A stretch of DNA of 64,000 bases from Sandarakinorhabdus limnophila DSM 17366 (GTDB taxonomy: Bacteria > Pseudomonadota > Alphaproteobacteria > Sphingomonadales > Sphingomonadaceae). The notes under the pieces are model-generated. The model ran no database searches and was not told the origin of the DNA. It was given only the letters and a program-made list of their open reading frames with translations. Position 1 is the first letter of the stretch; each line of letters begins with the position of its first letter. This document shows positions 9,175 to 9,904 of the stretch, one piece after another. Made by a program: the position numbers and the translations under genes. The stretch spans positions 186,001 through 250,000 of the forward strand of contig NZ_ATVO01000003.1 of NCBI RefSeq assembly GCF_000420765.1, in the 5' to 3' direction.

Positions 9175-9755
9175 TGCTGATCGCTGGGGTTGACGAGGCC
9201 GGGCGCGGGCCGTGGGCGGGGCCGGTGGTGGCTGCGGCCGTGATCCTGCGTGGGAAGGTCCCTACGGGCCTTGATGACAGCAAAAAATTGAGTGCTAAGC
9301 GGCGCGAGGCGTTGTTCCATGCGCTGCAGGCCAGCGACTGCCTGATCGGCGTTGGCCAGGCCAGCGTGGCCGAAATTGATCAGATCAACATCTTGCAGGC
9401 GACCTATTTGGCGATGACACGCGCCGTCGAAGCCTTGGGCGAAGTGCCGGCGCATGTGCTGGTTGACGGCAATCGCCTGCCGAAGTGGCGCTGGCCGGCC
9501 ACCGCAATCATCGGCGGCGACGGCTGCGAGCCGGCGATTTCGGCGGCCTCGATCATCGCCAAGGTGACGCGTGACCGGATCATGGTCGAACTCGATACCG
9601 CGCATCCCGGCTATGGCTGGGCGACCAACCAGGGTTATGGTGTCGCGGCGCATGCCGATGCACTGAACAGATTGGGTGCAACGCCCCATCACCGCGCCAG
9701 TTTTGCGCCCGTGCGCGCCGTTCTGCAGCGACTGCGGGAAGAAACTTCGGGGTGA
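9174..9755 (+). CDS. rnhB: Ribonuclease HII
   Basis: A 193-residue endonuclease that cleaves RNA in RNA/DNA hybrids and excises misincorporated ribonucleotides. The catalytic Asp7-Glu8 are in IAGVDEAGRGPWAGP, with further conserved HVLVDGNRLP and ISAASIIAKVTRDR. The frame opens earlier at 9018, but the ATG at 9174 gives the canonical N-terminus and overlaps thiD by one base. It is the last gene of the glmM-DUF1272-thiD-rnhB cluster. Confidence 0.95.
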   Translation: MLIAGVDEAGRGPWAGPVVAAAVILRGKVPTGLDDSKKLSAKRREALFHALQASDCLIGVGQASVAEIDQINILQATYLAMTRAVEALGEVPAHVLVDGNRLPKWRWPATAIIGGDGCEPAISAASIIAKVTRDRIMVELDTAHPGYGWATNQGYGVAAHADALNRLGATPHHRASFAPVRAVLQRLREETSG

Positions 9756-9904
9756 GTCTTTTGGGTCACACCACTAGGGGTTGAGTCCGCGTGTCCCGCC
9801 CGGACTCAAGATGTGGGTTTGTTCCCCTTTTGATTCCGGAATATGACGAATCGAGGAATCTCATTGATTCCAAATGATTCTTGACCGTGAATCCCATCTG
9901 AATC
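9754..9904. promoter_or_regulatory. Dense cluster of ten GANTC sites upstream of ccrM
   Basis: GANTC, the CcrM recognition sequence, occurs at 9754, 9783, 9803, 9832, 9848, 9856, 9866, 9876, 9889 and 9900. The last five are spaced 10, 10, 13 and 11 bp apart, close to one DNA turn. Chance would give about one site per 256 bp at even base composition, and fewer in GC-rich DNA. The cluster ends 28 bp before the ccrM start. In Caulobacter two GANTC sites in the ccrM promoter link transcription to methylation state. An autoregulatory role here is inferred. Confidence 0.7.
9781..9809 (+). terminator. Inverted repeat after rnhB, possible terminator
   Basis: TTGAGTCCG at 9781-9789 is perfectly complementary to CGGACTCAA at 9801-9809, with an 11-nt spacer. 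A T-rich stretch with GTTTGTTCCCCTTTTG follows. It starts 25 bp after rnhB, so it may end the glmM-rnhB transcript. Each arm also contains a GANTC site (9783 and 9803), so it could instead belong to the ccrM control region. Confidence 0.5.

Follow-up and report, generated by a model that had tools for sequence, protein, structure and literature searches.

The DNA analysed here is a stretch of 64,000 nucleotides (the window) in which ten exact copies of the GANTC motif, starting at positions 9754, 9783, 9803, 9832, 9848, 9856, 9866, 9876, 9889 and 9900, occupy the segment 9754-9904 between rnhB and the gene that we designate ccrM. The final five sites are spaced 10, 10, 13 and 11 bp apart, and 27 bases separate the last site from the ccrM ATG (9932). 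A first-pass annotation of this DNA had described ten GANTC sites within 151 bp directly upstream of ccrM, with the same spacing of the last five, and our count of the sites bears out that description. The features of the region are collected in Table 1. The sequence ACACCAC and the inverted arrangement TTGAGTC-N13-GACTCAA are situated among the three distal sites. Searches of the segment 9600-10000 detected no match to a consensus sigma-70 promoter. A terminator was rejected, as no terminator-like site was detected in 9600-10000, and an RNA element was rejected as well, there being no Rfam match at gathering scores in 9500-10100 and a folding z of -0.93.

Table 1. Features in and around the GANTC array of the window
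Feature	Position	Strand	Basis or remark
rnhB (ribonuclease HII), 5' neighbour	9174..9755	+	ORF; Pfam RNase_HII 7e-45; start codon by eye
rnhB stop codon	9753-9755	+	overlaps first GANTC (9754)
Distal module, GANTC 9754, 9783, 9803	9754..9809	+	sequence
Inverted pair in distal module, TTGAGTC and GACTCAA (window's last letters GACTCAAG)	9781-9787 and 9803-9809		sequence
Upstream ladder, GANTC 9832, 9848, 9856, 9866, 9876	9832..9880	+	last three 10 bp apart; last adjoins -35
Predicted -35, TTGACC	9881..9886	+	position-locked to GANTC across loci; by sequence alone
Ninth GANTC, just 3' of -35 (about -27 to -23)	9889..9893	+	offset +8 from TTGAC
Tenth GANTC (about -16 to -12), adjoins predicted -10	9900..9904	+	offset +19 from TTGAC
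Predicted -10, CATCAC, weak	9904..9909	+	inferred from promoter profile; A at -11 present; C for consensus T at -7
Likely ribosome-binding site, GGAG	9923..9926	+	by eye
ccrM, predicted GANTC adenine methyltransferase	9932..11098	+	ORF, profile and domain matches

The same annotation took the gene downstream of the array to encode the GANTC methyltransferase CcrM, and the properties of the predicted product agree with that assignment: it matches the CcrM model NF050803 with an E of 1.2e-178, and it contains an N6_N4_Mtase domain (6.6e-67) followed by a RAMA domain (1e-14). The NF050803 score of 593 bits is below the curated cut-off of 830 bits, but this cut-off does not discriminate here, because it was passed by 0 of 192 class genomes and by 0 of 14 control genomes, the Caulobacter vibrioides control included.

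We observed 80 GANTC sites in the 64-kb window as compared with 219 in dinucleotide shuffles, and the motif is therefore avoided overall, though the array itself is dense. A sample comprising 1,254,401 of the 2,613,739 bases of the genome (48%, window included) contained 1,422 GANTC, or 1.13/kb. Apart from the array, no 151-bp interval with more than five GANTC was found in these 1,254,401 bases, although a cluster lying across one of the 20-kb borders of the sampled stretches could have been divided; the next densest intervals contained five sites (L235) or four (L091, L099, L247 and L263). Thus the sampled 1.25 Mb of 2.61 Mb held no similar cluster at an unrelated locus, in keeping with the specific role proposed for the array in the first-pass annotation. 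The Poisson chance of at least ten sites in such an interval is 5e-15 at the genome density and 2e-10 at the shuffled density.

That proposal also led one to expect conservation of the array before ccrM in close relatives. We compared the window (L001) with nine such relatives, namely L002-L008, L010 and L011, with L009 left out, and found that 84 of 90 aligned GANTC sites are kept (94 of 100 with the window counted). Among the ten sequences, pairwise identity was 95% in the GA-TC columns, 91% at the centre letters and 69% in the other array columns. All of the GA-TC letters are kept between the window and L004, L006, L007, L008 and L010, against flanks that are 57-78% identical; for L005, the corresponding values are 88% for GA-TC and 72% for the flanks. 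Moreover, the last array site stays GANTC in the close clade while its centre varies among A, C and T. By these alignments, it is evidently the GANTC motif on which selection acts in the close clade. The 91% identity of the centre letters means that more than the methylatable letters is constrained, and the conserved centres of the other sites are a hint of further constraint.

Upstream enrichment for GANTC extends to the best 80 of 526 relatives by CcrM similarity, a set that is mostly Sphingomonadales because it was restricted in this way, and that includes one record labelled Parvibaculum. Within the 300 bp that precede the CcrM match, these best 80 of 526 relatives have 543 GANTC where 30 were expected from the rest of the loci (18-fold), with 3 to 11 sites per locus and five or more in 68 of the 80; the window itself (L001) does not enter into these counts. 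Such upstream counts start at the beginning of the protein match, which may lie up to ~120 bp inside the gene. The window's clade, with 8-11 sites, is among the richest. In 81 Sphingomonadales-type loci, the commonest distances between neighbouring sites are 9-11, 19-20 and 29 bp.

For a wider comparison we used 120 class genomes, out of 164 with any CcrM match; those excluded had weak matches or, if strongly matching, came mainly from a family code already represented. The 120 nonetheless include many pairs from one family code, so counts in this set are not independent. The 250 bp before the CcrM match contained 380 GANTC in the 120 genomes, versus 59 expected; three or more sites were present in 73 of the genomes, five or more in 31 and none in 13. 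Clusters of GANTC before ccrM are therefore widespread in the class. The window's count exceeds that of every one of the 120 class genomes, for which the maximum is 8.

Not only the number of sites but also the position of two of them relative to the putative promoter recurs. The predicted core of the window promoter reads TTGAC-N2-3-GANTC-N6-GANTCA, with the second GANTC adjoining the predicted -10 at a fixed offset. A GANTC begins 0-6 letters after TTGAC in 71 of the 81 Sphingomonadales-type loci, and 51 Sphingomonadales-type promoters have one at offset 19 from TTGAC. In the class set, GANTC occurs at offsets 6-10 from TTGAC in 66 of the 120 genomes and at offsets 18-20 in 50, both being present in 39, either in 77 and neither in 43. 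The design is therefore not universal, given these 43 genomes of 120 without a fixed site and the 13 of 120 without any upstream GANTC. The fixed sites accompany TTGAC far more often before ccrM than elsewhere: the first site accompanies 68 of 119 TTGAC words before ccrM versus 8 of 571 elsewhere in the class loci, and the +19 site accompanies 43 of 119 versus 1 of 571. Elsewhere in the 80 related loci, the two neighbours were found 4 and 2 times per 517 TTGAC words. Within the sampled 1.25 Mb of the window's own genome, TTGAC-N14-GANTCA occurs twice, one occurrence being that at ccrM, and both fixed sites after one TTGAC were found only at ccrM in the first 454 kb sampled. Taken together, the core geometry is shown by these comparisons of predicted promoters to recur before ccrM in a share of the examined class genomes that ranges from one third to two thirds.

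The recurrent sequences also helped to locate the putative -10 element. Outside the window's family, 42 of 118 class genomes, representing 33 of 91 family codes, carry TTGAC-N14-GANTCANNNT before ccrM, where mononucleotide shuffling leads one to expect 0.015 genomes; of the remaining 76, 17 contain TTGAC-N18-[CT]ANNNT without GANTC. The offset-19 GANTC is followed by A in every promoter that has it (51 of 51 of the Sphingomonadales type, 42 of 42 in the class set), and in the class promoters with TTGAC-N14-GANTC a T is found four bases beyond this A in 42 of 42, with an identical outcome for the 42 genomes outside the window's family. Since this -11 A and -7 T are invariant (42 of 42) and were not used in picking the sequences, they identify the -10, with a 17-bp spacer; the second GANTC adjoins the element and supplies its -12 base. 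Of the 51 Sphingomonadales-type promoters, only 33% retain the -7 T, in place of which the window carries C; because the T is mostly lost, the -10 of the window is presumably weak or shifted.

Upstream of the core, the ladder at -25, -15 and -5 from TTGAC proceeds in 10-bp steps, and the offsets -15 and -5 recur 18 and 9 times, respectively, in the class set. The distal sites are distributed differently. TTGAGTC-N11..15-GACTCAA was found before ccrM in 32 of the 81 Sphingomonadales-type loci but in none of the 120 class loci; for CACACC the counts are 59 of 81 and 19 of 120. For the most part, the distal sites represent an addition of the Sphingomonadales type. The distal block being common to Sphingomonadales-type loci, the array as a whole is composed of a widespread core and a lineage-type extension. 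The autoregulatory interpretation given in the first-pass annotation is thus upheld in part; that account missed the location of two sites within the predicted promoter core, the spread of the core far beyond Sphingomonadales, and the division into distal and proximal parts of unequal evolutionary distribution.

In the aggregate, the layout suggests that CcrM may tune its own production. Our preferred reading, held with somewhat less than even confidence, is that the ccrM promoter is methylation-gated and self-limiting, being active when hemimethylated and damped when fully methylated. Replication would shift the promoter from the fully methylated to the hemimethylated state, the hemimethylated promoter would let RNA polymerase transcribe ccrM, helped by GcrA where that protein is present, and fresh CcrM would methylate the sites in and around the promoter, damping ccrM transcription until the next replication. 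Additional upstream sites would make this response sharper, either because output would then depend on several methylation events or because a methyl-reader would be more abundant locally. Feedback by CcrM via methylation of its own promoter appears well supported as a class of mechanism. Such autoregulation by methylation state had been suggested earlier for the array, and it is favoured by the retention of the array in relatives, by the lack of a match to it in the sampled 48% of the genome and by the position of the proximal sites in the predicted -35/-10 spacer, which is shared by many class genomes. The negative sign of the feedback is plausible by analogy; we favour the hemimethylated state as the active one because of precedents described for Caulobacter (PMC2217572) and Agrobacterium (PMC11514494), these and the other papers named here being cited from excerpts.

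The main rival to the hemimethylated-on reading is activation by GcrA. By occupying methylated GANTC within the -35/-10 spacer, GcrA would recruit sigma-70 RNA polymerase, so that methylation would turn ccrM on (positive feedback or maintenance) and the ladder would add GcrA by avidity. According to excerpted reports, GcrA raises the level of sigma-70 transcription from methylated promoters (PMC7403470, PMC3667746), and because it is active at methylated Caulobacter promoters, a feedback of opposite sign would be allowed; it also binds better to fully methylated than to hemimethylated probes (PMC3667746), GANTC is located at -29 in Caulobacter ctrA P1 and at -24 in podJ P2 (PMC4287350), and a prediction across 13 species places ccrM among the core GcrA targets, a status that it has lost in some Caulobacterales (PMC7987155). 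The window's genome does encode GcrA (profile search, E 6.5e-44, above the cut-off), which is the obvious candidate reader of the array, and as in GcrA-type promoters, GANTC lies in or next to the predicted -35/-10 spacer (+8 and +19 from TTGAC). A T precedes the site more often in the arrays (0.48) than in the remainder of the loci (0.12) or in the own genome (0.19), and YGAKTC accounts for 0.74, 0.65 and 0.54 of sites, respectively. For the longer YGAKTCK, the corresponding values are 0.34, 0.36 and 0.22, an enrichment over the own genome but not over the remainder of the loci. The design does not follow the distribution of GcrA: one or both fixed sites were found in 18 of 23 genomes without a GcrA match versus 59 of 97 with a match (Fisher p 0.15), the full core in 12 of 23 versus 31 of 97, and the mean number of upstream GANTC was 4.1 in GcrA-negative versus 2.9 in GcrA-positive class genomes. 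We judge activation by GcrA to be somewhat unlikely. Because the core is no rarer where GcrA went undetected, a direct effect of methylation on RNA polymerase is a serious possibility. The target fused to the -10 (TTGAC-N14-GANTCANNNT) might then reflect an ancient, class-wide form of self-sensing, in which sigma-70 RNA polymerase would read methylation directly without a dedicated reader, GcrA would contribute only in some lineages, and the multi-site array into which Sphingomonadales would have extended the promoter would act as a cooperative counter of methylation events; in this full form we consider the proposal unlikely.

The remaining explanations are less probable. CcrM itself might sit on the un- or hemimethylated array and block RNA polymerase, or the array might be a local sink for CcrM, either of which would amount to autorepression by the protein. 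This would be workable without GcrA, and two sites lie within the expected polymerase footprint with another adjoining the -35, but enzyme turnover would give only brief CcrM occupancy, and ten sites against ~1.13 sites/kb genome-wide would titrate little of the enzyme, so that we regard this explanation as improbable. The idea of a local CcrM sink, which had been raised in the first-pass annotation, was rejected on these site numbers and is unneeded, the ten sites being a small share of ~1.13 GANTC/kb over 2.6 Mb. Still more doubtful is the view that the sites serve above all as operators for a different regulator (CtrA/SciP, DnaA, or some unknown dimer that reads TTGAGTC-N13-GACTCAA), with methylation secondary. 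The inverted pair and CACACC, in the Sphingomonadales-type loci as set against the class set (32 of 81 versus 0 of 120, and 59 of 81 versus 19 of 120), and the conserved site centres of the close clade are in its favour; in addition, 34 of 81 loci have a TTAAC box ahead of the -35, and 14 of 81 have exact DnaA boxes nearby. On the other hand, the window has no TTAAC, the CtrA half-site and sole CtrA motif that we sought, in the 45 bp before its -35 and no exact DnaA box in 300 bp; genomes that lack the inverted pair also show the proximal GANTC geometry; and the last site varies its centre letter yet stays GANTC. Chance or base-composition clustering is so improbable that it can be set aside: besides the Poisson value of 5e-15 per interval and the depletion of GANTC in the window, it is refuted by the conservation of the array in relatives.

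Several observations on GcrA, DnaA and CtrA may be recorded separately. There are 23 of 120 class genomes that have a good CcrM match without a recognisable GcrA, and 18 of these 23 keep one or both fixed sites. When the 23 negative genomes and G001 were searched at a relaxed E of 10, no match exceeded the cut-off for GcrA, though a divergent GcrA could escape such a search; the GcrA model also matches in a Sulfolobus control and is thus imperfectly specific. As a predictor of the core, GcrA presence was rejected, the core being no rarer in the 23 genomes without a match. The window's genome also encodes a DUF1153 protein, a family that we take to be SciP, and a CtrA-like regulator (the latter identified by eye). 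Exact DnaA boxes (TTATCCACA or its complement) upstream of ccrM were found in 10 of 120 class loci, and the 14 of 81 loci with such boxes are L013, L015, L022, L028, L035, L046, L048, L052, L059, L066, L072, L076, L077 and L081. In the 81 loci, the 45 bp before the -35 contain on average 2.19 GANTC where TTAAC is missing versus 0.59 where it is present (p 1.5e-6, computed without a tree). This apparent exclusion between TTAAC and extra GANTC in the Sphingomonadales-type loci rests on few clades, and we do not claim a trade of the CtrA box for GANTC: well-supported branches of the CcrM tree provided 6 independent pairs, which gave no support (median p 1) but are too few to reach 0.05 under any pattern.

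In Caulobacter ccrM, two GANTC sites are located in the leader, whereas those of the window lie in and upstream of the predicted core. The Caulobacter crescentus promoter is otherwise the closest parallel, in that the same gene has GANTC in its promoter region and its expression is tied to hemimethylated DNA (PMC2217572, PMC8865702); indeed, a modelling paper has ccrM transcribed only from the hemimethylated chromosome (PMC2217572). Transcription there is driven by CtrA (PMC2217572), unlike the window, which lacks TTAAC in the 45 bp before its -35. The ctrA P1 and podJ P2 promoters of Caulobacter resemble that of the window in having GANTC near the -35 or in the -35/-10 spacer (-29 and -24; PMC4287350), but the window has two fixed spacer sites, one of which adjoins the predicted -10, and eight more upstream. 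Methylation weakens the Agrobacterium tumefaciens gcrA promoter, which contains 6 GANTC in 250 bp, and it does so in E. coli as well, where alphaproteobacterial regulators are absent (PMC11514494). There too, GANTC sites are clustered upstream of a member of the same circuit and activity falls on methylation, although the gene is another one, the sites are fewer, and the excerpted text describes no fixed core geometry and makes no mention of the ccrM promoter (PMC11514494). A computed GcrA regulon likewise has ccrM as probably GcrA-regulated in many of 13 species, but what its excerpt treats is the number, score and conservation of extended motifs, with no array, -10 fusion or spacing (PMC7987155). 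Finally, a 2010 survey counted GANTC upstream of alphaproteobacterial cell-cycle genes, some having more than others, and proposed that DnaA controls ccrM, chiefly in cases in which CtrA sites are missing (PMC2877005); unlike our analysis, its excerpted text draws no conclusion on control by methylation, and its supplementary per-gene tables may include ccrM counts.

It was already known that Caulobacter ccrM bears GANTC and is probably methylation-responsive (PMC3973325), and a link of GcrA to ccrM had been predicted (PMC7987155). A prior description of the fixed geometry, or of an array of such density before ccrM, was not found in the open-licence literature, supplements being outside the scope of that search. 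The fixed geometry places the target of the enzyme inside the predicted core promoter of its own gene and thereby allows methylation feedback to be tested directly, at two sites, in many genera. It also bears on what restricts CcrM to a brief period of the cell cycle in bacteria other than Caulobacter, and could explain the replication timing of CcrM where CtrA is dispensable, as it is reported to be in Sphingomonas melonis (PMC8116508). The dense array would, in addition, be a natural multi-site methylation sensor for study.

Two smaller clusters elsewhere in the sampled genome deserve mention. L230:820-937 (also L247 from 9334) contains four GANTC in 118 bp before a gene for a CtrA-like regulator (by eye), which is itself 3' of a DUF1153 gene; this agrees with the counts before ctrA, reaching five or six sites, in a paper whose excerpt gives counts before ctrA and not ccrM (PMC8116508). 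L263:5868-6051 contains five GANTC in 184 bp before a gene that by eye resembles that for the ribonucleotide reductase large chain, and this gene is a further candidate for methylation-timed expression.
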